The notes beneath the pieces are model-generated. The model saw nothing but the letters and a program-made list of their open reading frames with translations, ran no database searches and was not told where the DNA came from. A stretch of 64,000 nucleotides of DNA. Source: Rudanella lutea DSM 19387 (GTDB lineage Bacteria > Bacteroidota > Bacteroidia > Cytophagales > Spirosomataceae). The position numbers and the translations under genes were made by a program. The stretch spans positions 120,881 through 184,880 of the forward strand of contig NZ_KB913014.1 of assembly GCF_000383955.1 (NCBI RefSeq), written 5' to 3'. Below, one piece after another: positions 2,188-13,385 of this stretch (positions are counted from its first letter, which is position 1; every line of letters starts with the position of its first letter).

Positions 2188-2550
2188 GACGAGGCTGGAT
2201 TCGTTCTTCAGTCAGTGTGCCCTCACAGTTGGCAGGCCCCCGTGAACAAATAGATCGGCTGAGTCAGCCTGATTCTCGGGCATCGTGTTGGGGTAGGGCT
2301 CGGAGCCGGGCTATGCGGTAATGAGCCGTTGTTTCAAAGGGGTATGACCAGCCAGCAGCTGATTGAAATGGTCGATGAGTGGGTAAAGTTCTTGAGTCAG
2401 GTGACGGTACTGGCATTGGATAAGCCCCGGTGCATCGCATCAGACCGGTGCAGTATCAACTAGCGGAGTGGCAGCAAGCCGGTCAGCATCTCTTCTTTTT
2501 ACCGGCTTATAGTTCTGTTGGAGACGATCAGGCGGAATCCAGTCTGTTGA
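2188..2550 (+). pseudogene. IS630-family transposase remnant
   Basis: No intact frame, but conceptual translation across frame changes gives the IS630/Tc1-like landmarks in the right order. These are DEAGF followed by a PHSWQAPG-like segment, then LALDKPRCIAS (matching the usual VLDNAxxHxS), then AEWQQAGQHLFFLPAYS (matching the conserved YLFFLPxYSPxLNPIE stretch). The catalytic Asp/Glu of the DDE triad are lost or out of frame. This is a heavily decayed copy and marks the edge of the accessory island. Confidence 0.7.
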
Positions 2551-2583
2551 GGCATAATACCCAAAATGAGTATTATGCCTCAA
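2547..2583. repeat. Palindrome, copy 1 of the GCATAATACCC family
   Basis: Perfect 14-bp arms (2547-2560 and 2570-2583) around a 9-bp loop; the core is GCATAATACCC-AAAATGAG-TATTATGC. The same core recurs 100 bp downstream at 2647-2707. Both copies lie just 3' of the parB remnant at 2758-3572, matching the position of the palindromes at the two other parB loci. It could be a ParB-binding centromere-like site or a terminator. Confidence 0.7.
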
Positions 2584-2646
2584 CTCGCTGATTCACTGAG
2601 ATATAACACCAATTTCTGGTATTTATTTTAAACATTATCACTTAAC

Positions 2647-2707
2647 AAAAACATCCCTTCTGAGCATAATACCCAAAATGGGTATTATGCTCAGAAGGGA
2701 TGTTTTT
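2647..2707. repeat. Long palindrome, copy 2 of the GCATAATACCC family
   Basis: Perfect 28-bp arms (2647-2674 and 2680-2707) with a 5-bp loop. Its centre shares the GAGCATAATACCC core with 2547-2583. The outer ends are A-rich and T-rich, so the structure could also act as a bidirectional rho-independent terminator for the parB remnant. A centromere-like role is inferred from the second copy and from the equivalent position at the other parB loci. Confidence 0.75.
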
Positions 2708-2757
2708 TTGGCTAACTAGTACAACGTTTTATAGCCATCTGAATGGTTCAACAGTCA

Positions 2758-3572
2758 CTAGAGTAATTCTTTTAAGGCGGTCGCCTTGAGAATGAGCTGG
2801 TCAAGACGGGCCCGTGTAAGCGACTTCCCTGATAACAGATTCTCCATAAAACCCGTCAGCTCCGCCTGCGCCTTCGCTTTGGCTTTATACTTTTTTTCTG
2901 AATCCTGTGCCTCTACTTTCTCCTGCGTACCTGTAGCGAGTGATTCCAGCTCATCAACACTGCTAATCACGGAGACAGATGGCATTTTCCCTACTTTTTG
3001 AAGGGAACCTTTATCTACTTTTACTGCCCCTGAAAGTACCATTTTCTTCAGGTCAGGTGCGAGTCGTTCGACGCCCGCAGCAAATTCTGAATCGCGGATA
3101 ATGGTGTTTTTGCCTACGTTGTATTCTTGTGCCAGCTTTTCAGCTGTGATGGTCACCTGGCTTTTTCCGCCTTACCTGTTGAGTCAGGCGTCTTTTCTTC
3201 TATGCGGTCGTACTTCCCTTTATCGGCTTTTTCATTCAGATAACGAAGCCCCCGAAAATACTGAATCTGTTGCGGGGTAAGATTACGACGCCCTAGCTGC
3301 AAATCGATCATGAAATCTTTCACCGACTTCAAATCCGCAAAATCCATCAGCTGGATATTAAAGCTAATGTTTCGCGCTTTGCAAATCCGATAGCGGTTAT
3401 GGCCATCAACCAACACATAGGCTGGCTCGTCGGGTGTTGTCGAAGTTGGATCGATCTTCTGCCAAGTGGTCTCCCAAAGACTCAGGGCGTCCCGACAGCC
3501 ATTTGCGACAATATTCAATTCCAGCTGCTTGTTCTCTTCCTCAGTTGGTTCGGGTATCCAACTCCGTAACTC
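2758..3572 (-). pseudogene. parB: ParB-like protein, locus 1: truncated and frameshifted
   Basis: Two frames together cover the ParB-like protein seen intact at 7716-8645. The first (from about 3572) carries ELRSWIP, the NGCRDALSLW segment, the VDGHNRYRIC motif and IDLQLGRRNLTPQQ; it stops at 3153. The second begins at GTG 3156, overlapping that stop, and carries the HTH (LAQEYNVGKNTIIRD) and a lysine-rich tail. In the intact homologue these are one chain, so a one-base frameshift is likely; translational coupling at the GTGA overlap is the alternative. The N-terminal 35 or so residues are missing: at about 3573-3588 homology switches abruptly to an opposite-strand ThiF gene. No parA is left. 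This is recombination debris, not a working partition gene. Confidence 0.75.
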
Positions 3573-3588
3573 AGGCGATCAGATTCAA

Positions 3589-4503
3589 GTATGGACTGAC
3601 GAGCCGGTGACGAACATTGCGCGAGAAGCCGGGCAACGCACGGCGCAGGCTTTTGGTGAACGCTCCTATGATCTTCTTCGGCGGCTGAAGGTTGGCGTAG
3701 TCGGCTGCTCTGGCACGGGTAGCCCGGTGATTGAACAGCTAGCCCGGTTGCAGGTAGGTCACTTAGTACTGGTCGATCCTGATATGATTGAAAAGAAAAA
3801 CCTTAACCGGATTCTTCATTCGACCTATCAGGACGCAGTAGACCACCGTCCCAAAGTGGACGTGCTTGGTGATGGGGTTGTTTCTATGCAGTTAGGAACA
3901 GACGTCACCCGCATACAAGCCAATCTGTACGACGACACGGACGTATTACTTGAGCTTGCCGGTTGCGACGTGCTAATCGGCTGTATGGACAGCGTCGATG
4001 GCCGGTTCCTGCTTAACCGACTGGCTACATTTTACCTGGTCCCCTACCTTGATTTGGGCGTAAAGCTACAGGCCGACGGGACAGGTGGCATTGAGCACAT
4101 TAGTGGGGCGGTACATTTCCTTCAACCCGGTAAATCGTCGCTGATAACGCGGGGCATGTTCGATGAGACAGATGTACGTTCGGCTTCAGAATACCGGAAG
4201 GATCCAGAGACGTTTTCCGAGAGGGTGAAACACGACTATTTCCGGGATGTACCTGTCAATCGCTCAGCGGTCATCTCCGTCAATATGCTGACCGCTGCGG
4301 CAGCCGTTTGCGAATTGCTCAATCGCCTACACCCTTTCCGCAAGGAACCCGCCCATCAAGTACTGGAGATGACAGAAGGCTATTGGGCCAACACCGAGGA
4401 GTCCTACTTTCCGGTAGATGACTATTTAGTGCGTAGAATTGGCCGGGGTACGTTACAGCCTTTCTTGGAGATGGTGGACCTTAACATACCGATTTTATGC
4501 TGA
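3589..4503 (+). pseudogene. E1-like ThiF adenylyltransferase, N-terminally truncated
   Basis: The frame carries a ThiF/E1 Rossmann domain: VGVVGCSGTGS nucleotide loop, VDPDMIEKKNLNR (the NLNR signature), then GCMDSVDGRFLLNRLA. Family members adenylate the C-terminus of ubiquitin-like proteins or sulfur carriers. Upstream of about 3589 the frame stays open only because it runs antisense to parB; that stretch has no ThiF character. Related E1 proteins in poly-ubiquitin-like operons usually carry an extra N-terminal (JAB-type) domain, absent here. The gene overlaps the DUF6527 gene, its usual companion. A GTG inside parB could still start a chimeric protein, so a truncated enzyme is possible. 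Substrate unknown; no ubiquitin-like gene is left nearby. Confidence 0.7.
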
Positions 4504-4838
4504 TGGCACGTACCTGGATGCAGAAGCTAAAACTTAGGCTTCTGCGTCTTTTTTTTGATACACACTACCTTGCCCAGCGCGTTGACGATTTACCAGAGCA
4601 TATCCATGAACGTCGTATCTACTTAGTTGGTGCATCGGAAGCCCCCTGGCTGATCGCGTTTCAGTGTCCTTGCGGCTGTGGGAATCTAATTCAGCTCAAT
4701 ACCCTGAAAGAAGCTAAACCGCGCTGGACTTACGAACACCACCGCTTTAATCACATCAGCTTAGCACCTTCTGTATGGCGCAAAGTTGGTTGTAAAAGCC
4801 ATTTCTGGATTCGTAACGGTAAGGTTGCGTGGTGTTAG
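4497..4838 (+). CDS. DUF6527-like Cys-rich protein
   Basis: A 113-residue protein (111 if ATG 4503 is used) overlapping the end of the ThiF gene by a few bases, so the two are translationally coupled. It carries a CPCGCG knuckle, then PRW, then SLAPSVWRK and a final CKSHFWIRNGKVAWC. The spaced cysteines and histidine suggest a zinc-binding fold. This pattern matches DUF6527 proteins, which comparative genomics places in bacterial poly-ubiquitin-like operons with E1, E2 and JAB proteins. The biochemical role is not established. It appears complete, but its operon has been cut off upstream. Confidence 0.65.
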   Translation: MLMARTWMQKLKLRLLRLFFDTHYLAQRVDDLPEHIHERRIYLVGASEAPWLIAFQCPCGCGNLIQLNTLKEAKPRWTYEHHRFNHISLAPSVWRKVGCKSHFWIRNGKVAWC

Positions 4839-4899
4839 CTTTTGGGTCATTTCCCGATCACTTGCTCGCTAGACTATGTTAAGTTTCCTCATCACAACC

Positions 4900-4942
4900 A
4901 GAGGTTATTTTCTCCAACCATCGGCAGGAGAAAATAACCTCT
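4900..4942. terminator. Bidirectional terminator hairpin
   Basis: Perfect 16-bp arms (4900-4915, AGAGGTTATTTTCTCC, and 4927-4942) with an 11-bp loop. They sit between the convergent DUF6527 and DUF1016 genes. The A/T-rich arms provide U-tracts in both directions. Confidence 0.65.
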
Positions 4943-4982
4943 ATTAAACGCACTGCTCCGCGTTAAGCAGATTGTCTGGTAA

Positions 4983-6026
4983 TTATTGATCTTCTTTCGC
5001 TTTTTCGAGTCGCTTTCGAGCCTGCTCAATGGCTGTATGTAGCTTTTGCTCCAGTAAGGTGCGTGGCAGTTGATGCGTCAGGTATTCGGCCACTCGGATA
5101 TCGCCTTTGTCGAGTTCGAGCAGTTCAATATGCTCGTGCGATTTTTCGGCACAGAGTATCAAGCCGATTGGATTATTCTCTCCTTCCAGCATCTCATGCT
5201 TACGAAGCCAGCCCAGATACAGTTCCATCTGCCCTTTGTAGGCAGCTTTAAACCGTCCCAACTTGAGGTCTATAGCCACCAGTCGACGTAACCGACGGTG
5301 GTAGAAGAGCAGGTCGATCCGGTGGTCGTCGCCGTCGATGACAATCCGTTTTTGTCGGGCCATGAACGCAAAGTCGGAGCCGAGTTCGATGATGAACTTC
5401 TGTAATTCAGAAACAATGGCATCTTCCAGTTCTTCCTCTGAGTACGTCTTTTCTAAGCCTAGAAAATCAAGTACGTAAGGGTCACGAAACACCATGTCGG
5501 GCGTTAGCCGGTCCGTTTCATGCAACTCTGCCAGCTCACGCCGGATGGTTTCGTCAGGCTGTTGCGAAATAGCGGTACGCTCGTACAGCATTCCGTCGAT
5601 CTTTTGCCGCAGCATCCGTACACTCCACCGCTCCAGTCGGGCCATTTGGGTGTAAAACTCCCGCTTTAGGTCGTCTTTGACGTAAAGCAGCGTAACCAGA
5701 TGTGACCACGTAAATTGTTCAGACAGTGTCTGAATAATTGATACGTCGGGATAAAGCCGGGCTAACTCTATGGCATTGGTAAGGTTTGCGGGGCTAAACC
5801 CTTTGCCGTATTCAGCCGTAAGGCGGTCGCTCAACTGCCGAATGGTTTGCTTGCCGTATTCAGCCCTCCCCTGCCCTAATACTTCAATGTTGATGCGTTT
5901 GCCGATAGCCCAGTAGAGCCGGGTAATTTCCGCATTAATAACCAGAGCCACCTTCTGCCTCGACTGCCCGATCAGTGCACGGAGGTCATTAAGTAAATCG
6001 GGCGAAATAGGTGAGTGATTAGTCAT
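4983..6026 (-). CDS. YhcG/DUF1016-family PDDEXK nuclease
   Basis: A 347-residue protein with the two-part YhcG layout. The N-terminal DUF1016_N domain (about 10-160) contains the WAIGKRI segment, YGKQTIRQLSDRL, FSPANLTNAIELARLYP and FTWSHLVTLL. The C-terminal nuclease-like domain (about 180-335) carries IDLLFYHRRLRRLVAIDLKLG, in which D and DLK form the PD-(D/E)xK core. The length is normal for the family. ATG 6026 lies 28 bp after the stop of the hsdM remnant. YhcG proteins are often found within or beside type I restriction loci, as here. The exact activity is unproven for the family; a structure-specific or defence nuclease is inferred. The reading frame is intact, unlike its neighbour. 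Confidence 0.85.
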   Translation of the reverse strand: MTNHSPISPDLLNDLRALIGQSRQKVALVINAEITRLYWAIGKRINIEVLGQGRAEYGKQTIRQLSDRLTAEYGKGFSPANLTNAIELARLYPDVSIIQTLSEQFTWSHLVTLLYVKDDLKREFYTQMARLERWSVRMLRQKIDGMLYERTAISQQPDETIRRELAELHETDRLTPDMVFRDPYVLDFLGLEKTYSEEELEDAIVSELQKFIIELGSDFAFMARQKRIVIDGDDHRIDLLFYHRRLRRLVAIDLKLGRFKAAYKGQMELYLGWLRKHEMLEGENNPIGLILCAEKSHEHIELLELDKGDIRVAEYLTHQLPRTLLEQKLHTAIEQARKRLEKAKEDQ

Positions 6027-6053
6027 ATAGTTGGGTTAGTATTTCTTGTTTTT

Positions 6054-7562
6054 TTACGATTCGAGTTTCTGATTCGCCCCGGTTGTCTGCGTGAGTAATG
6101 CCTTCAGCGCCTGCAAATCGGCCTGCCGCTCGCGGTCGAGGGCTTCAATCTTGTCGATTAGCTCAGTGGGCGTATCGTGCTGCTGGACATGCATGACTTC
6201 TTTGTAACGCTTGATGCTCAGGTTGTAATTGTTGGCCGGATGTCGGCCACCGGCTCAGAAAAGCTCTGATCAGTTCTGGTATGTGTCGTCTTCCCGGCCG
6301 TGCCAGCGGGCCACGCTGTCGGGAATGTCGTTGGCGGCCGTGGCCTGGCTTTTATCATCGAGCGTGAAGCCATCGTCCCGCATGTCGTAAAACCAGACAG
6401 CGCCCGTACCGCCCGCGTTCGTTTTGGTGAAAATCAGAATGGCCGTGCTCACGTCGGCGTAGGGCTCGAACACCCCGCCCGGCATCTCCATGCCACCCTG
6501 CAACTGATGGCGGTCAATAAGTACCTGCCGAATCTGCCGATGGGCTTTAGAGGATCCGAACAATACTCCATCGGGTACGATCACAGCCGCCCGGCCACCC
6601 GCCCTCAGACCACGTAGCATTAGGATTAGAAACAGGAGTTCCGTTTTCTTAGTGTTAAAGGTCTGTAAAACTCGCTTTTCTACAGCTTCGTGATCCAAAC
6701 TCCCATTGAACGGCGGGTTAGCCAGCACCAGCGTAGCGCGATCAGTAAAGCCCGCGTTGGCTTCCGACAACGCATCCATGTCAATCAGATTCAGTCGTTC
6801 AATCCCGTGCAACATCAGGTTCATCACCCCAATGCGAATCATCGTCGCATCGAACTCCATGCCTAGGAACATCGATTCATTGAACCGTTTCCAAAACTCA
6901 GGCTGAAAGAACTCGCCGACATGATGCTGATGGAGGTACTCAGCCGGGCCCACGAGAAAGCCGCAGCTTCCTGAGGGAGGGTCGCAAACGACGTCATCGG
7001 GTGTATGGCGCATCAGGTCAACCATCAGTTTGATGATGTATCGAGGGGTATGAAACTGCCCATTTTGCCCAGCCGTCGCGATTTTAGCGAGCAGGTATTC
7101 ATACACATCACCCTTCGTACGCGGTCTTCCATGCGCACGTCGGAGAGCAGATCGACAACCTGTGTCAGCAAGCGGGGCGAGGGAATCATAAACGTAGCTC
7201 CTTTCATAAAGCGGTTGTACGCGGTGCCCTCCACATTTCCCAGGCTACGCATAAGCGCAAACACACCATCAGGCGGGTAAAAAGCGTAAAGAGTTCTTCG
7301 GGGCCGAGGTACCGGAACCGGCTCCAGCGCAGGTATTGCTGTTCATTCTGGCTGATAAATAGGCGATTCAACCGGCTTGCCTGTATACGTGGCCTTTTGT
7401 TCTTTCGCCAATTGAATATCATCGAGCCGTTTGATGAACAGCATCCGGGCCGCCGGGGCGGTAAGTAATCTGCTCAATTACAGTCAGCGGGTTGGTGATA
7501 CCGCCCGTCCAGAAAGCATTCCATATTTTGTCGATTTGAGTACGTTGATTGCCGGTAAGCAT
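6054..7562 (-). pseudogene. hsdM: Type I restriction-modification methyltransferase HsdM, multiply broken
   Basis: Conceptual translation across several frames yields a near full-length HsdM (about 500 codons). It starts MLTGNQRTQIDKIW at 7562 (HsdM_N). The 7204-7422 and 7025-7264 frames carry the rest of the N-terminal domain. The longest frame (6270-7106) holds the N6-adenine methylase core, including TPRYIIKLMVDLM, DPPSGSCGFL and the catalytic NPPF motif. After a stop near 6270 the C-terminal NYNLSIKRYKEVM and a coiled tail end at TAA 6054. At least three frame breaks are visible. No hsdS or hsdR gene is present. The gene is dead, or the assembly has several errors. Confidence 0.85.
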
Positions 7563-7586
7563 AGAAAGGGGGTAACGTCTTGAATT

Positions 7587-7704
7587 AATGGTGCCAGATT
7601 GACACCATTTTTTTCTGGTTAGGCACGTTATAAATGGTGTCAATCTGGCACCATTTTGAGGTGTCTTTGCGGTCGCTCGATAATGGTGCCAGATTGACAC
7701 CATT
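7587..7704. repeat. Three-copy palindrome cluster downstream of parB2 (putative centromere)
   Basis: Three 23-bp copies at 7587-7609, 7633-7655 (inverted) and 7682-7704. Each is itself an imperfect palindrome around GGTGCCAGATTGACACC, and the three are identical once oriented. Start-to-start spacing is 46 and 49 bp. The cluster sits directly 3' of parB2 (stop at 7716) and before the hsdM remnant. Repeated, regularly spaced, dyad-symmetric sites next to parB are typical of plasmid parS/centromere regions. Nested hairpins acting as terminators are the alternative. Confidence 0.75.
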
Positions 7705-7715
7705 ATCGGCAAGGC

Positions 7716-8645
7716 TTATTTCACCTGCTTTTTGGCTTGCTTCAGCAGAGCAATCAACTGATCGCAGTCCGCGACAAACTCCGTCGCGTTCGGGTCGAGT
7801 GTCTTAGCTATCTGAGCTATCTTTTTTAGTAGGTTCCTGACCTCTTTTGAAACGGTTGCGGGTATAGCTGTCGGCTCTGCTGCTTCAACTGGCGCAATAG
7901 CATTTACATCTGCTAACGATAACGGCCGGGCTTCCGGCGAGACCATTTTTCCAATTTCACGGACTACCTCTTTGGGCAGTTTCTGCGTACCCTTCAGTAC
8001 CTCCTCTTTCAAGGAAGGTTCCAGGCGGTCAAGTCCTTCAGAATAATCGCGATCGCGCAGGATGGTGCGGGGCGACACATTGAACTCTTTCGCCAATTTA
8101 TCGCGGGTACGTTCCGCCGGGGCGCCGGCCGCTTGCTTTTCTGCTTTCTCAGTACCACTCCTCCCCTCTTCAGCAACCGGACGGCCTACCGTCTGACGCT
8201 CGTTTCGGTACTTCAGGCCACGCAGGTACGACATCTGTTCTGGTGTCAGGTTTCGCCGTCCCAGTTGGTTGTCGATCATGAAGTCGCGCACGGCCTGAAG
8301 CGTCGGAAACTCACGAAGCGATATTTTGAATTCCACTCCATTCGAGGAGCAAATTTCATGTCGGTTATGACCGTCGATCAGTACGTTCACCGGGGTGTCA
8401 TCGGCTGAACCATCGACCAATCCCTGTGTCGTCTGCCAGATCAGCAACGGCTCGCGGCACCCGTCTTTCAGAATATTACTTTTTAACTGCTCATACTCTC
8501 CCACTTGCAACGGAGGGATCAGAGCTTTAAGTTCTGGAAGGATCGTAATGTTGGCCTTCACCTCGTCGAGCATACTCTGCATGAGGTTAGCCGTATTGCG
8601 ATGCAGCACGGGCGGCTCGCCGGAAGCGGTTTTAAACTTCTTCAT
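7716..8645 (-). CDS. parB: ParB-like partition protein, locus 2 (intact)
   Basis: A 309-residue ParB/Srx-fold protein. Residues 36-140 hold the N-terminal domain: ALIPPLQVGEYEQL, DGCREPLLIW, the IDGHNRHEIC motif at 90-99 in place of the chromosomal GERRxRA box, then MIDNQLGRRNLTPEQ. Residues 181-205 form a helix-turn-helix (RDKLAKEFNVSPRTILRDRD), and the tail is a lysine-rich helical region. It starts 5 bp after parA2, so the two form one operon. It probably binds the palindrome cluster at 7587-7704 and partners the adjacent ATPase, as in plasmid ParABS systems. Whether it hydrolyses CTP like chromosomal ParB cannot be judged. It is the best-preserved of three homologues in the window (others at 2758-3572 and 11390-12264). 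Confidence 0.85.
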   Translation of the reverse strand: MKKFKTASGEPPVLHRNTANLMQSMLDEVKANITILPELKALIPPLQVGEYEQLKSNILKDGCREPLLIWQTTQGLVDGSADDTPVNVLIDGHNRHEICSSNGVEFKISLREFPTLQAVRDFMIDNQLGRRNLTPEQMSYLRGLKYRNERQTVGRPVAEEGRSGTEKAEKQAAGAPAERTRDKLAKEFNVSPRTILRDRDYSEGLDRLEPSLKEEVLKGTQKLPKEVVREIGKMVSPEARPLSLADVNAIAPVEAAEPTAIPATVSKEVRNLLKKIAQIAKTLDPNATEFVADCDQLIALLKQAKKQVK

Positions 8646-8650
8646 CTGTA

Positions 8651-9628
8651 TCAGGCTGGATGTTTAGCCACCACTTCATCGGCCAGGGCTTGGTAATCAG
8701 TGGCTCCGGTAGAGGTAGGTTTGTACTCAAAAATATCCTGACCGACGTACTGCGATTCGGCCAGTGCGATGTTCTGCCGGATTTCCGTCTTGAAAAACGG
8801 CTGGCCTTTCAGATCAGCCCGTACCTGCGCCATCAGTTCCCGGTGCAGTACCAATTGGGGGTTTACCCGCGCCATCACAATGCCCTCGACGCCTAAACGC
8901 GCATTAAACGATTCCTTGATGTCATGGATCAACTCAAGGAGGTTATACATTCCTTTGACGGCCGAGGCTTCCGGCTCCAGCACCACCAGGGCCGCCGTAG
9001 AAGCGACCAGGGCCGAATACGTGAAGATGGTAAGCGAAGGCGGGCAGTCGATCAGGATGTAGTCGTATTGCGTCAGCAGCGGGGTCAGTGCATTACGGAA
9101 GCGAAGCACTCCGCTCGGCGTTTTGGTCAAATCCGCTTCGGCTCGGGCCAATTCCAGATCGCTCGGCACCAAGTGGTAGTTTTCTTTCAGCGGCACAACC
9201 GGAATAGGAACATTCTGGGTCAGGGCCTGAAGCAGTTGCTGCTCGGGGTTGTGTACGCCTAAACTCTGCGACAGATTACCCTGCGAATCCATGTCGATGA
9301 GGAGCACCGACTGTCCCCGATTCGCCAGTCCTTTACCCAAGTTAATAGTTGTGGTGGTCTTACCCACTCCCCCTTTATGATTGACGACAGCCAATACGAT
9401 CGCCCGGTGGTTCAGAAAATCGTCAATTCCATATTGGCGAAGCACTGGCACCAAAGCTTTCAAATGGGCTTCACTCAGGGTACGTTGCCCATTCATCGCT
9501 TTGGCCAGTGTACCAGTTGGCAGGCCAGCCTCTTTGTTTAAGCCCGAATGAGAAAGCGTAGGCTTCTTTTTCAGGAATTTATACACCTCCTCGTGTGTCA
9601 GCATAAGTTTAGGCGCTTTTTTTGCCAT
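8651..9628 (-). CDS. parA: HTH-ParA partition ATPase, locus 2 (intact)
   Basis: A 325-residue ParA. Residues 1-70 are a small helical DNA-binding-type domain (HEEVYKFLKKKPTLSHSGLN... GTLAKAMNGQRTLSEAHL). The ParA/MinD ATPase follows: deviant Walker A KGGVGKTTTT at about 85-94, the LLIDMDSQGN switch I region at about 113-122, and DYILIDCPPS (Walker B/switch II) near 190. The C-terminal part contains TEIRQNIALAESQ. The layout matches plasmid type Ia ParA, whose N-terminal domain autoregulates the operon. A perfect 40-bp palindrome lies 24 bp upstream of ATG 9628 as a ready operator. ATG at codon 9 is an alternative start, equivalent to the start of the locus-3 homologue. It forms an operon with parB2. 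Confidence 0.9.
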   Translation of the reverse strand: MAKKAPKLMLTHEEVYKFLKKKPTLSHSGLNKEAGLPTGTLAKAMNGQRTLSEAHLKALVPVLRQYGIDDFLNHRAIVLAVVNHKGGVGKTTTTINLGKGLANRGQSVLLIDMDSQGNLSQSLGVHNPEQQLLQALTQNVPIPVVPLKENYHLVPSDLELARAEADLTKTPSGVLRFRNALTPLLTQYDYILIDCPPSLTIFTYSALVASTAALVVLEPEASAVKGMYNLLELIHDIKESFNARLGVEGIVMARVNPQLVLHRELMAQVRADLKGQPFFKTEIRQNIALAESQYVGQDIFEYKPTSTGATDYQALADEVVAKHPA

Positions 9629-9652
9629 AAATTTATACCATTAAAACAAAAA

Positions 9653-9692
9653 CAGAAGCAATTTGGTAAAAATTTTTACCAAATTGCTTCTG
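9653..9692. promoter_or_regulatory. Perfect 40-bp palindrome upstream of parA2 (putative operator)
   Basis: Positions 9653-9672 and 9673-9692 are exact reverse complements with no loop; the centre is GGTAAAAATTTTTACC. It lies 24 bp upstream of parA2. Type Ia ParA proteins with an N-terminal HTH repress their own promoter through such dyads, so an autoregulatory operator is inferred. The A/T-rich centre could include promoter elements. It may also separate parA2 from the divergent recombinase remnant. Confidence 0.7.
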
Positions 9693-9797
9693 TGCGCGCC
9701 AATTCCGAATTACATACAGCCATACGTAGGGCCGGAGGTTGAGTTTCAGCCCGTCGTGCTGGGCATCCGCCAATGATGAAGCCCAACATCTGGTGTA

Positions 9798-10343
9798 GGG
9801 CGTTGGGGTACGAAGCCGAACGCGACGCTGGCCAGCATTGATGCCCCTTTGAACAGAGCCATTGTGGCTCTGCTGGTATTGGAAGGACTTCGTTTCGTCG
9901 AGGTAACGCGGCTGACCGTCGGCGATGTGGAGTTTGACAAGGGGCAGCTCCAGATACGTGGCAAAGGGAAAAACACAAAAAAGGCCATTAAGCTCTTTGC
10001 CCCCTGCGCCAAAGCCCTTCGCCAGTACATACAATCTGATGGGGTAGTTTCGCCGACCTCTCCCCGCTCTTACCCAGATAGTCGGACCGCCTTATTTCCC
10101 GAACTGAAAACAGCCCAGATCCGCTACCGGGTTGACAAGTACCTGAGAGCCCTTGATTTGAAACGACCCAAGATGTCGGCCCATAGCCTGCACCACACGG
10201 CGGGGCAGATCATGATTGACAAAGGAGTAGAGCCGATGTGGGTGCAGTACCATCTTCGGCACGAACTGTTCGAGACGACGCAGTTTTACATTAAAAAGCA
10301 GACAGAGCGCGACTACTTCGTGAAGATGCCGAATACGATGTGA
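9798..10343 (+). pseudogene. Tyrosine recombinase/integrase, C-terminal fragment
   Basis: The frame (open from 9798, with only TTG 9849 as a weak start) encodes the catalytic half of a phage-type integrase: EGLRFVEVTRLTVGDV (first catalytic Arg), GKGKNTKKAIKL, then AHSLHHTAGQIMIDKG, HLRHELFETTQFYIKK (late His and Tyr) and a short tail. The N-terminal SAM-like core-binding domain is absent. In the HxLRHT box the second catalytic Arg is replaced by His (HSLHHT), which should abolish activity. It lies next to the palindrome upstream of parA2, in a region full of mobile-element debris. It probably mobilised the island once. Confidence 0.8.
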
Positions 10344-10604
10344 AGTAGTATTTAAGTGTATCGCTTGGCTATAAAGAGAATAAAGCCTATTCAAGTTTTG
10401 AATTTACCGATGTCCGGCTTAGGGCGCGGGGTTTTCAGGAAGTAATGCGTAAACCTTAGCATATTTATTTTATAGTTCATCCGCAATTCGTTGCAGTTCC
10501 CATACCTTCCAGCAATTGTAGTTTAATTGACGCACCATAAGCTTTCGACGGGTCAGCTGGGCCTTTTGAAGCACTCAACTCGACAGTCTCACAGCATCGG
10601 GGAG

Positions 10605-11043
10605 CTAGTCTTTTTCGAGAAACGTATACAGCCGTCCGTAAGCGGGAATTAGTTGCTGCCGGATAGCCTGTTCATACTGACGGGTAATGTCAGCTATCAG
10701 GGATAAAGCCATCGTGCATGGACGCAGTAGGGCCATAGAAGGTACTTTGGATCAAATCGTCAACCAAAAACGACTGTAGCTGCCTGATAACCCGACTCAC
10801 AACTTTCTTAAGAAGAACCCGTCCTGATGGAATACCTCGCTTAAGAACACCAATGGTAGATTCAGTCAGATCCACGTAATTGTTTATGCGAGCCAGAAAG
10901 TCGGCATAGTCTCTGGGAGTGCGGAAGGGTTGTAAGCCATCTTTACTTCCCAATCGGGCCATATTGACATAAATTCCGTTCAACTGACCTATGGCAAACA
11001 AGTGGAATGGAAACCGTAGCTCTTCGAGTTGATCGGTCAGGTC
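10605..11043 (-). pseudogene. DUF885-family protein, C-terminal fragment
   Basis: Two frames on the minus strand resemble the C-terminal region of DUF885 (M2-type peptidase-like) proteins common in Bacteroidota: a QPFRTPRDYADFLARINNYVD segment, an IGVLKRGIPSGRVL segment, and after a frame change ADITRQYEQAIRQQLIPAYGRLY ending at TAG 10605. The metal-binding half of the enzyme is missing and there is no start codon. About 260 bp upstream (10344-10604) show nothing recognisable. Confidence 0.5.
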
Positions 11044-11071
11044 TTAGCGAAAGCAGTCGAAGGTCAGACGA

Positions 11072-11209
11072 TCAGAAGTCGGCAAAATGGCCTTCTCGGC
11101 TAGGAGGTAGGTGGGCGATTCGTTCCCACTGCTGGTCGGTGATTTCGTAACGGCGTAGACTACAAAGATGGAAAGCTCGGCTAACTTTACCTAACTGTCA
11201 ACACACTCT
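11072..11209 (-). pseudogene. IS5-like transposase start and putative terminal repeat
   Basis: The minus strand encodes RRYEITDQQWERIAHLPPSR, the standard beginning of IS5/IS4-group transposases, and stops at 11072. About 50 bp upstream lies GTGTTGACAGTTAGG (reverse complement at about 11191-11206), which resembles an IS terminal inverted repeat; a related string occurs near 24003-24018. The rest of the element is gone. Confidence 0.5.
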
Positions 11210-11285
11210 AGTTTAAGCAGTTAAACAGGAAGAAAATACACCAGAATTTTTGCTCCCCCTTCCTTACAATTCGGGCTTACTCATG

Positions 11286-11344
11286 TTTCGAAGCATCAGG
11301 TTTAATGTGGTAAATTTTACCACATTAAACCTGATGCTTCGAAA
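11286..11344. repeat. 59-bp palindrome downstream of parB3
   Basis: Perfect 29-bp arms (11286-11314 and 11316-11344) around a single base; the centre is GTGGTAAATTTTACCAC. It lies 46 bp 3' of the parB3 remnant, the same relative place as the palindromes at loci 1 and 2, but its sequence is different. The central GGTAAA-TTTACC resembles the centre of the parA2 operator palindrome. Candidate centromere-like site or terminator. Confidence 0.7.
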
Positions 11345-11389
11345 AGTCGGAGGAATCAAGTAAATCAAGCAGGTTCTGAAGGCGGGCAG

Positions 11390-12264
11390 CTAACTCAAGA
11401 CAATTGCCTTGATGGATGGTAAGGGACCCTTTAGTTGTTGTGATAGCTGAATAATGGTTTCAATGTTCTCTGTAATTGAAACCTTAGGCGATGGGTTTAC
11501 CTGGTTATTTACCTCGAGTACATCCTCCGTTTCTTCAACAGAACCTACAAGCGCCATATTTATCTCGGTAGGTGACCCAATTGGGTGGGCAGGTGTATCC
11601 AGTTCGCCAAGAGCTACAATATCGCTTTTCTTAACTTTAATCTTTCGAGTCAAGACATCTTTCTTCAACGAATCGGATAGCTTATCCATGCCTTTTGCAT
11701 ATTGTGCATCGATTCTGATCGTTTTAGGACTTACATTAAACTGATCGGCAAGAACATCTTCGGTACGACGTTTAGGTGTATCAGTAGCTGACTGGTTTGG
11801 CCTTCAGGCTTTTTCTTTAAGGTCAGGTATTTTTGACCTCTCAAATAAGCCATCTGTTCAGCTGTAAGATTCCTACGGCCCAGTTGATTGTCAATCATGA
11901 AACTGAGAACAGCTTCTTTATCGTCAAATTCACGAAGAGAAATCTTAAAATCAATTCCATTGCGTTGACATATTCCGTACCGATTGTGCCCATCAATTAA
12001 GACGTAAATCAAGGTGTTGTCAGAATTTCCATATAGGGCATCTTTTGTGGTGTTCCACACCAGCAATGGTTCCCGACAGCCATCACGGATAATATTAATT
12101 TCAAGTTGTTCGTATTCATCCTGACCGAGGGGGGGGGGGGGAATAAGTGATTCAAAATCAGGGAAGATAGTAATTTGAGATTTGATTTGTTCTTGTTGCA
12201 CCAGGGATCCGGCTTCCTTACGAATTAGTGGTTTTTGTCCAAATTGACTTAGGCTTTTTTTCAT
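11390..12264 (-). pseudogene. parB: ParB-like protein, locus 3: frameshifted
   Basis: Starting at ATG 12264 (MKKSLSQFGQK), the frame follows the intact ParB2 through DGCREPLLVW, LIDGHNRYGIC and MIDNQLGRRNLTAEQ. Near 11785 it leaves frame after TSQLL. One base over, the chain resumes as TDTPKRRTEDVLADQFNVSPKTIRID (the HTH) and continues to a stop at 11390. The N-terminal part includes a run of 13 cytosines on the coding strand (12129-12141) encoding Pro-Pro-Pro-Pro where ParB2 has two prolines. The partner parA3 is also broken, so the locus is probably dead, though a single base change would restore the chain. Confidence 0.8.
12129..12141 (+). repeat. Homopolymeric tract of 13 G inside parB3
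   Basis: Thirteen consecutive G on the + strand (C on the parB3 coding strand). It lies within the LIPPPPLGQ segment before the ParB core. Such tracts slip during replication and sequencing. The present length keeps the upstream and downstream ParB frames joined. Confidence 0.95.
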
Positions 12265-12283
12265 GATTGTCGATGGAAAAGGA

Positions 12284-12994
12284 TTAATTGCCAAAATGAG
12301 TGACATATTCACTCGCAAGTTGTTTGTAGTCTTGGGCCCCAGGGGAAGAATTGCTATACTGAAATATATCTTTCTGAGCGTATTGGGATTCTTTTAGAGC
12401 TGCATTGAGTCGAATCTCTGTATTGAGTACCCTAAAATCTGAGAGATCCTGACGAACAGTCTGAATAATCTCTTTGTGTATAACTAATCGACGGTCAACT
12501 CTGGTAAGTATGATTCCATCAATCATTTCAGCGTCGGCCAGTTCAAGGTCAGACGGTGCTAAACTCAGATTTTCAGAAACGTTGATAACCGGCAGGGGCG
12601 CATCCGTCAATAAGGCGTGTGCCACCTGACTTTCAGGCTGCTCCACCCCAAGAATCTGACTTAGGTTGCTCTGTGGGTCCAGATCAACTAATAATACGCG
12701 AAAACCACGGCTGGCTAAAGCAGCCCCTAGCGAGGAGGTGGTCGTCGTTTTGCCGACTCCGCCTTTGTGGTTAATCACTGCAATCACTCTCGCCTTAGTG
12801 TACAACCCTTCCATGTAGCCATATTTGTTTAGAATAGGCTCAAGCTTAGCCAGATGATTTGCATTGAGAGTGCGAGTGCCCAAAAGCCCTTAGGCGAGGG
12901 TTCCTTTGGGCAAACCAGATTCTTTTTCCAGCACCGAAACTGTCAAGGCAGGATTATTCTTTAGGAATAGTTTTGCGCTTTCGAGCGTCAGCAT
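12284..12994 (-). pseudogene. parA: HTH-ParA ATPase, locus 3: nonsense codon and internal deletion
   Basis: From ATG 12994 the frame matches the N-terminal domain of ParA2 (LFLKNNPALTVSVLEKESGLPKGTLA), then hits TAA at codon 35 (12890-12892). Beyond it, in the same frame, come HLAKLEPILNKYG, the Walker A KGGVGKTTTT and LLVDLDPQSNLSQ. After LAPSDLELADAEM the chain jumps directly to IDGIILTRVDRR. About 80 residues present in ParA2 are deleted in frame, including the DYILIDCPPS Walker B/switch II region. The C-terminus is intact and ends 20 bp before parB3. An internal start at 12883 could yield a 199-residue protein, but it could not be an active ATPase. Confidence 0.85.
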
Positions 12995-13004
12995 AGTGTC
13001 GGGG

Positions 13005-13068
13005 TTTGTAAAGATTTCATTGCAAACGAAGCAAAATCCCTCAAATTCCGTAATAAAATCCTTACAAA
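13005..13068. promoter_or_regulatory. Imperfect inverted repeat upstream of parA3 (putative operator)
   Basis: TTTGTAAAGATTT (13005-13017) and AAATCCTTACAAA (13056-13068) are inverted copies with one mismatch, 38 bp apart, just upstream of the parA3 start. The position mirrors the 40-bp palindrome at parA2, but the sequence is different and less perfect. Confidence 0.4.
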
Positions 13069-13320: not shown

Positions 13321-13385
13321 ACAAGTCTATTCATAATGAAGCCAGCTTCCTTTGTAAAAGCTGGCTTCATTATGAATAGACTTGT
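13321..13385. terminator. Long hairpin downstream of the minus-strand PUL
   Basis: Perfect 28-bp arms (13321-13348 and 13358-13385) with a 9-bp loop, 11 bp after the stop of the sulfatase at 13397. It is placed to terminate the minus-strand PUL transcript. It is as long and perfect as the palindromes after parB1 and parB3, so this genome may simply use very long terminators, or the structure belongs to the neighbouring island. Confidence 0.55.

Follow-up and report, generated by a model that had tools for sequence, protein, structure and literature searches.

A 64,000-nucleotide stretch of Rudanella lutea DSM 19387 (contig NZ_KB913014.1, positions 120,881 to 184,880 of the forward strand; the window in what follows) carries three parAB-type loci spanning 2546 to about 13008, all on the minus strand, as a first-pass annotation had proposed. 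Locus 2 is intact, and loci 1 and 3 are decayed. Why three related loci stand in one island, and how each ParB protein would recognize its own sites, is the question that this locus raises. We consider it very probable that they are type I ParABS plasmid partition loci whose ParB-parS specificity has diversified and is set largely where the recognition helix begins, in its first turn, with loci 1 and 3 as decayed representatives. Four computational results carry this reading, namely the association of the sites with parB, the covariation of site and protein, the prediction of sites outside the family and the presence of in-frame sites inside the gene; they suggest that ParB residues 193, 196 and 197 largely determine which site is used.

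In locus 2, parB2 (7716-8645, minus strand) is intact and encodes a protein of 309 amino acids (aa) with a DGHNR N-domain and the recognition helix VSPRTILRD. Directly before it stands parA2 (8651-9628, minus strand), an intact gene for a Walker-type ATPase of 325 aa (AAA_31 at E 3.5e-46, residues 78-245), which is the gene arrangement of type I ParABS; the N-terminal part of ParA2 looks by eye like a helix-turn-helix. Three palindromes lie behind parB2, at 7586-7609 (TAATGGTGCCAGATTGACACCATT), 7632-7655 (inverted) and 7681-7704, the last being closest to the gene. The remains of parB1 (2758-3518, minus strand; recognition helix VGKNTIIRD) are followed by two palindromes, one at 2647-2707, whose core CATAATACCCAAAATGGGTATTATG lies within a terminator-like hairpin, and one at 2546-2584, and those of parB3 (11390-12318, minus strand; recognition helix VSPKTIRID) by a single 59-bp palindrome at 11286-11344 with the core TAATGTGGTAAATTTTACCACATTA. 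Each parB was thus correctly described as having a distinct palindrome set behind it, but the further claim that the sites are unrelated to each other did not survive, as all of them fit one 25-bp frame. When a strict frame palindrome is defined by at least 10 of 11 arm pairs and an inner CA or AA, the 64 kb contain five, every one behind the three parB genes; the site 2 copy at 7586 falls below this threshold. As single strands, the window palindromes gave folding z-scores of -8.8 to -12.8.

The association of these sites with parB extends to other genomes. Across 200 genomes of the family, 40 of the 43 places within two mismatches of the three sites were found at a related parB, a distribution unlike that of generic terminators: 8 of 11 places in 7 genomes for the site 1 pattern, 9 of 9 in 6 genomes for site 2 and 23 of 23 in 8 genomes for site 3. 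The site 1 places lacking a parB are G129:C37, G147:C29 and a degraded copy on the plasmid itself at C2:97859 (C2 being the contig that holds the window), and a backward control pattern matched nowhere for sites 1 and 2 and at one place in one genome for site 3. For example, the Spirosoma oryzicola plasmid NZ_CP089542.1 encodes, near a replication gene, a ParB 69% identical to ParB2 and carries the site 2 type twice. Conservation of the sites exceeds that of the genes: locus 3 and its relative L026 agree in 25 of 25 site bases, and their matching gene DNA is 65% identical.

A search with ParB2 gave matches in 68 of the 200 genomes, and from among the matches listed we assembled 133 loci with a parB open reading frame (ORF), among them the window and L019. 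The row counts (131 rows) and the analyses after them exclude the window fragments; L019 and L020, the same plasmid locus from two collections, are doubled in the 131-locus counts and single after redundancy removal. In the 131 loci, palindromes are concentrated at two places, with 84 in the first 100 bases after the parB stop and 61 at 400-500 bases before it, and their density is 1.0-1.3 per kb over the following 200 bases, with 0-0.6 per kb in the remainder. Within 300 bases after parB there are 98 palindromes, where 20 mononucleotide shuffles gave a mean of 0.45 and at most 2. With a looser threshold and a filter on the inner bases, 120 of the 131 rows have at least one site, which is downstream only in 48, in the gene only in 39 and in both places in 12; the remaining rows with a site have it upstream or in mixed places, and some upstream sites look like chance. 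Aligned on their centres, the sites share one 25-bp frame of 11-3-11 in which positions 4-10 vary, with 33 distinct cores (positions 4-10) among 114 loci, and an unfiltered listing gave the same frame in most loci.

For the analysis of specificity, 6 of the 120 site rows were omitted, their sites lying outside the chosen places, and the 114 kept were reduced to 83 by removing rows at least 80% identical. In these 83 rows, site and recognition helix covary in a manner that can be read almost as a code. With K at residue 193, site positions 7-8 are GG in 37 of 37 rows, and with R they are TG in 29 of 31; N goes with CC at 8-9 (4/4), A with CT at 8-9 (5/5) and S with T at position 8 (5/5), and one row has T as residue 193. 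Residue 196 relates to position 6, which is a purine in 55/55 rows with K, T in 15/16 with R, 5/5 with H and 1/1 with I, and G in 6/6 with L or M. Where residue 197 is R, position 10 is C in all 67 rows, and with any other residue it is A in all 16. The window pairs fit this code, namely VGKNTIIRD of ParB1 with CATAATACCCA, VSPRTILRD of ParB2 with TAATGGTGTCA and VSPKTIRID of ParB3 with TAATGTGGTAA; ParB2 is among the 83 rows, so that its fit is not independent, and ParB1 and ParB3 are outside them, with a relative of each inside.

The same residues emerge when all columns are compared. The top 4 of 2420 residue-position pairs after average product correction (APC) are 197-10, 193-8, 193-7 and 196-6, all in the recognition helix. 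Uncorrected summed mutual information proved misleading, with variable N-terminal columns scoring high, and was replaced by APC and by pairs matched in N-domain identity. Among pairs of 50-60% N-domain identity, those sharing residue 193 had a difference at positions 7-8 in 13 of 470 cases, and those not sharing it in 1339 of 1377; the corresponding figures are 0 of 1179 and 639 of 668 for position 10 and residue 197, and 246 of 876 and 759 of 971 for position 6 and residue 196. When neighbours at least 50% identical were left out, the helix scored 3.92 of 6 as a predictor of the site, compared with 3.21 for the N-domain and 2.94 at random. Linker columns (about 153-168) covary trivially with the site where they encode it (e.g., A158 and P156), and S163 ranks above R193 in one N-domain-matched list, a rank that we tentatively put down to the linker encoding the site and to gaps. 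On a 125-row tree, positions 7-8 changed 28 times by parsimony and residue 193 changed 24 times; position 10 and residue 197 changed 9 times each. The first-pass annotation proposed a joint diversification of ParB and site in the manner of incompatibility groups, and this is supported by the covariation in the 83 non-redundant pairs and by the prediction outside the family described below. Two findings would have spoken against the proposal, palindromes placed as generic terminators and sites that do not covary with ParB, and both were looked for and not seen.

The residues in question lie at the start of helix 192-206, the recognition helix in an AlphaFold model of ParB2 built from 64 sequences (mean predicted local distance difference test score 87.7). 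In a Foldseek search of the PDB with this model, the first 29 matches all belong to the ParB family (E 1.3e-4 to 0.41; 19 at E <= 0.001), including Caulobacter ParB, Noc, Myxococcus ParB, Thermus Spo0J, a pNOB8-like ParB N-domain, KorB and PadC. Whole-chain TM-scores are low (about 0.2-0.4), as expected if the domains are turned against each other, and the model points to a ParB fold with a helix-turn-helix, as in type I ParABS. G92, H93, N94 and R95 are invariant in the 64 sequences and form the GxxR P motif of ParB proteins with a cytidine triphosphate (CTP) switch; DGHNR, first annotated as replacing the chromosomal GERRxRA box, keeps the GxxR core. The pieces of parB1, parB2 and parB3 matched no Pfam or NCBIfam family at E 0.001; at E 1 only helix-turn-helix models were found for parB2, and for 15 family members no ParB family appeared among the 25 of 31 families listed. 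Of these 15, 8 are recognized by PHROG 4715 ('ParB-like partition protein'), and a profile search against solved structures returned no ParB, only SpoIIID at E 0.38. The family is widespread and overlooked by curated libraries; in addition, 36 viral-contig loci (L346-L381) encode ParB relatives with 26-48% identity over the best segment.

The rule was fixed in writing first, and loci from other families and from Persicobacter, Aureibacter and cyanobacterial plasmids were collected only afterwards. The resulting test set comprised 84 parB ORFs in 82 outside loci, and 42 of the genes have a strict frame site in the chosen places. On these 42, the rule held in 31/42 for residue 193, 23/29 for residue 196 and 40/42 for residue 197. 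On the 38 distinct helix-site pairs the scores were 27/38, 19/25 and 36/38, compared with permuted means of 15.6, 10.3 and 26.6, and were reached by none of 2000 permutations; a match to either half-site counted, for the data as for the permutations, and relatedness inside the test set is ignored by the latter. For residue 193, K held in 25/28, A in 3/4, N in 1/1 and S in 1/1. Four cyanobacterial plasmids (L338-L341) carry ParB relatives with no ParA annotated in the stretches shown; one of them, Oscillatoria pOSC7112.02 (L339), has an in-gene site, and its ParB fits all three parts of the rule.

A number of observations weigh against so simple a code. Half of the outside genes (42/84) have no strict frame site in the chosen places, and 11 of the 131 family rows have no frame site under the looser threshold and inner filter. 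As the site search was filtered on an inner C/A-A, the A at position 11 and the C or A at position 10 arise partly by construction. Residue 196 is a weaker predictor than the other two (position 6 differs in 28% of pairs with the same residue and 78% with a different one at 50-60% N-domain identity), and at N-domain identity of at least 70% the site differs in just 3 of 6 pairs with a different residue 193. With close relatives kept in the comparison, N-domain and helix are equally good predictors of the site (5.21 and 5.12 of 6). Independent pairs drawn from N-domain trees followed the predicted direction on average, and a few of 200 random pairings had one opposite pair, but only one to three pairs rest on well-supported branches and none is significant, so that such tests cannot reach significance. 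Outside the family, the R193 part of the rule held in only 1 of 8 genes, and the R part is therefore a family feature and not a general one.

In all 8 of these R193 genes position 8 is G, and position 7 is C in 6 of them (L265, L267, L269, L270, L318 and L337, with CG at 7-8). Three of these, L267, L269 and L270, have E196 together with R193 and CCG at positions 6-8, a possible extension of the code outside the written rule.

A further point on the same side comes from the organism itself. A fourth ParB of the family, with the helix VSSRTIRRD, is encoded on the main chromosome contig (C1:6116788; L130 3289-4131) and is followed by a hairpin. This locus has no frame site within 6.5 kb; the site predicted for its ParB was searched for and not found, nor was the site predicted for the Rudanella relative of that protein.

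Could the palindromes simply be transcription terminators of parB, alike among related loci through shared ancestry alone? Several features are consistent with this, since the first downstream copy carries extra hairpin arms beyond the core (mean 5.4 bp, n=70; later downstream copies 3.5 bp), the site 1 copy at 2647-2707 scans as a terminator on both strands, and long hairpins are also found at unrelated genes in the window. However, cores are often multi-copy, helix residues predict the core in other families, and many copies lie in the middle of parB with almost no extra arms (mean 0.9 bp, n=93), which together make this explanation highly improbable. In 58 of 130 family loci, 93 sites are located inside parB between the N-domain and the helix-turn-helix. 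All but one of them (92/93) share a codon phase, the distance between copies is divisible by three in 34 of 35 cases, and translation of the site gives an interdomain linker peptide such as HKGQNVPYG. As the in-gene copies carry almost no extra arms, we read the two functions as separate, with the 25-bp core serving ParB and the outer arms serving termination where a copy follows the gene.

The position of these in-gene sites has a further consequence. Since an in-gene parS is encoded in the linker, immediately before the helix by which it would be read, a change of type in one step would be possible: a short recognition code and its centromere might move as one cassette, and a single recombination tract could then install a self-consistent incompatibility type. 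We regard this as a tentative idea, somewhat less probable than its opposite. If it is true, the orphan sites of the dead loci in the window would be scars of type changes or plasmid fusions.

The pairs might alternatively be autoregulatory repressor-operator systems of the KorB kind in the main, and not centromeres. Sites 5' of parA in some loci and the presence of KorB among the fold matches agree with such a role, but the sites are mostly downstream of parB or within it, the loci inspected by annotation or tblastn have a ParA-type gene before parB, and parAB is found near replication-initiator genes on plasmids, in some of which the replication gene adjoins it; we consider this explanation very unlikely. 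A perfect 42-bp hairpin at 9652-9693 stands directly before parA2 and scans as a terminator facing it. It was rejected as a ParA operator or further site, as it is not kept among relatives: 9 of 10 (from L019, L184-L188, L191, L202, L209 and L250) have no hairpin with arms of at least 11 in the 400 bases before parA, and the tenth, L250, has one of different sequence. Altogether the window contains six long-arm hairpins; that at 9651-9694 is the one 5' of parA2, and those at 4900-4942 and 13321-13385 are unrelated to par.

If the sites serve plasmid partition, plasmids sharing a cell should differ in them, and this was examined in 115 loci of 61 genomes, with the three window loci included and the loci of Persicobacter sp. 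JZB09 not counted. None of 87 same-genome pairs shares positions 4-10, against 5.1 expected from label shuffles (6 of 2000 as low), and 8 pairs are within one mismatch, against 12.8 expected, a weak deficit (165 of 2000 as low). Two qualifications count on the opposite side. Two co-resident JZB09 plasmids (L271 and L272) share both helix and site and are 98% identical over 1472 bases; this near-identity may reflect recent duplication, tolerance or an assembly matter. In addition, L032 and L051 of genome G151 are identical (100% over 2835 bases) and stand on one contig at a distance of 220 kb, probably as a circular overlap; they were left out of the 131-row site counts and of everything after them, this count included. 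If they are included, there is one same-genome identical pair.

What, then, are loci 1 and 3? In locus 1 only remains of parB1 are left, in two ORFs (3518-3153 and 3156-2758); the 5' end is gone, the frame is broken between the ORFs, around 3153-3246, and the place of the 5' end and of parA is occupied by a ThiF-type gene (3466-4503, plus strand; PF00899 at E 1e-25). In locus 3, parB3 is split into two frames (12318-11731 and about 11800-11390), with the frame change in the linker, and the recognition helix remains readable; a poly-G run lies within the gene at about 12131-12142. Its parA3 (minus strand; ORF 12284-12883, outer limit to approximately 13008) retains AAA_31 positions 2-130 of 177, and by eye about 80 internal residues are deleted relative to parA2 and the start region is broken. 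Despite these broken genes, the site cores of both loci are perfect or nearly so, which fits the view that the loci are kept for their sites, as orphan centromeres that ride on incoming plasmids or interfere with them; a precedent is SGI1, an element that reportedly hijacks a plasmid parABS (PMC10954446). Recent decay would give the same picture, though, site 3 is present in a single copy here and in six in the relative L027, and the further site 1 copy at C2:97859 is degraded; we judge such a role unlikely, and it would be compatible with ParABS partition as the best explanation.

The replicon itself, C2, is a contig of 203,683 bases whose first and last 138 bases are identical, and these ends make a circular plasmid of about 203.5 kb its most likely form. 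C2:21015-21902 encodes a protein with 41% identity to an annotated plasmid replication initiator. Iteron-like AATACCC/GGGTATT repeats followed by a small ParA-type ATPase gene (205 aa) were observed at C2:6775-7926 and are possibly a further maintenance system of the same plasmid; the AATACCC repeats at C2:6775-6889 were discarded as extra copies of site 1, their inner bases being off-frame and the small ParA-type gene that they precede being a different one. Between loci 1 and 2 (4983-7106) there are a YhcG-type PDDEXK nuclease (4983-6026) and an N6-methyltransferase ORF (6270-7106), perhaps restriction or defence remnants, and between loci 2 and 3 a tyrosine-recombinase (Phage_integrase) fragment lies in the opposite orientation at 9849-10343.

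In the mechanism that we propose, locus 2 would be the working partition system of the plasmid, a type I ParABS in which a ParB2 dimer would bind the three 25-bp sites (parS) behind parB2 and the ParA2 ATPase would move the complex; loci 1 and 3 would be partition loci that had different specificities and have decayed, probably remnants of fusions between plasmids. Residue 193 would select positions 7-9, with K specifying GG at 7-8, N specifying CC and A CT at 8-9, S specifying T at 8, and R specifying G at 8, preceded at 7 by T in family members and mostly by C elsewhere. Residue 196 would select position 6 (a purine with K, T with R, H or I, and G with L or M), and residue 197 position 10 (C with R, A with any other residue). 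Plasmids sharing a cell would differ at these positions, and each ParB would find its own plasmid. Binding, nucleotide switching, partition and incompatibility are predictions from sequence.

The P1 and F plasmids carry well-known type I (HTH-ParB, from helix-turn-helix) ParABS systems. Passages of one article add SCP1 to these examples and describe several partition systems per plasmid as common (PMC13245405). The loci described here resemble these three in having a ParA ATPase gene and then a ParB gene, nearby repeated palindromes and a ParB fold, but differ in that no Pfam or NCBIfam ParB family recognizes them, the site is a 25-bp 11-3-11 palindrome and sites are often inside parB. In chromosomal ParB and Noc, the passages covered attribute a specificity switch likewise to few residues, including the base-contacting R173 of the DNA-binding domain (PMC7383237), and by analogy we infer that residue 193 may be its counterpart; that work, as far as those passages go, established one switch between two sites by experiment, whereas here 33 natural cores among 114 loci are compared by computation. 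The Burkholderiales Bsr parS families are, in the parts of the source covered, also palindromes related to one another through a common frame; each is bound by ParB in a replicon-specific way, which is interpreted as a means to avoid incompatibility (PMC5450999); there the sites are 16 bp, not 25 bp, in six systems, and the same passages contain no residue code. Centromere sites in reading frames are found in repABC replicons too, some at the 5' end of repB according to the passages covered (PMC9040568), and differ from those here, which occupy a fixed place in the ParB linker, keep one codon phase and space their copies by multiples of three. The GxxR P motif (here G-H-N-R) and the nucleotide-binding fold are shared with the proteins of a ParB-CTPase fold survey, passages of which report that the fold also binds ATP or GTP (PMC12704722); 'DGH' and 'bacteroid' do not occur in the survey text covered. 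In a literature covered in part, which makes this weak evidence, no publication was found on the sites of this ParB family, its residue code or parS in the ParB linker, and none, within the same partial coverage, that joins partition, ParB, plasmid and Spirosoma. The system is probably ordinary in kind, as plasmid ParABS, and what appears new is the largely legible specificity code and the centromeres, which are movable and often in frame; three stacked loci would by themselves be of limited interest.

How plasmids gain a new partition specificity while staying functional is an open question, which the papers considered here studied on a few protein-site pairs. Here the code can largely be read from sequence, thanks to dozens of natural pairs that share a frame, and a centromere that is translated as the linker of its own ParB would be an unusual case of coding sequence with a DNA function imposed on it. 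If true, the code would explain how related plasmids are told apart, would permit the prediction of plasmid incompatibility in Cytophagales and would supply many candidate orthogonal ParB-parS pairs.

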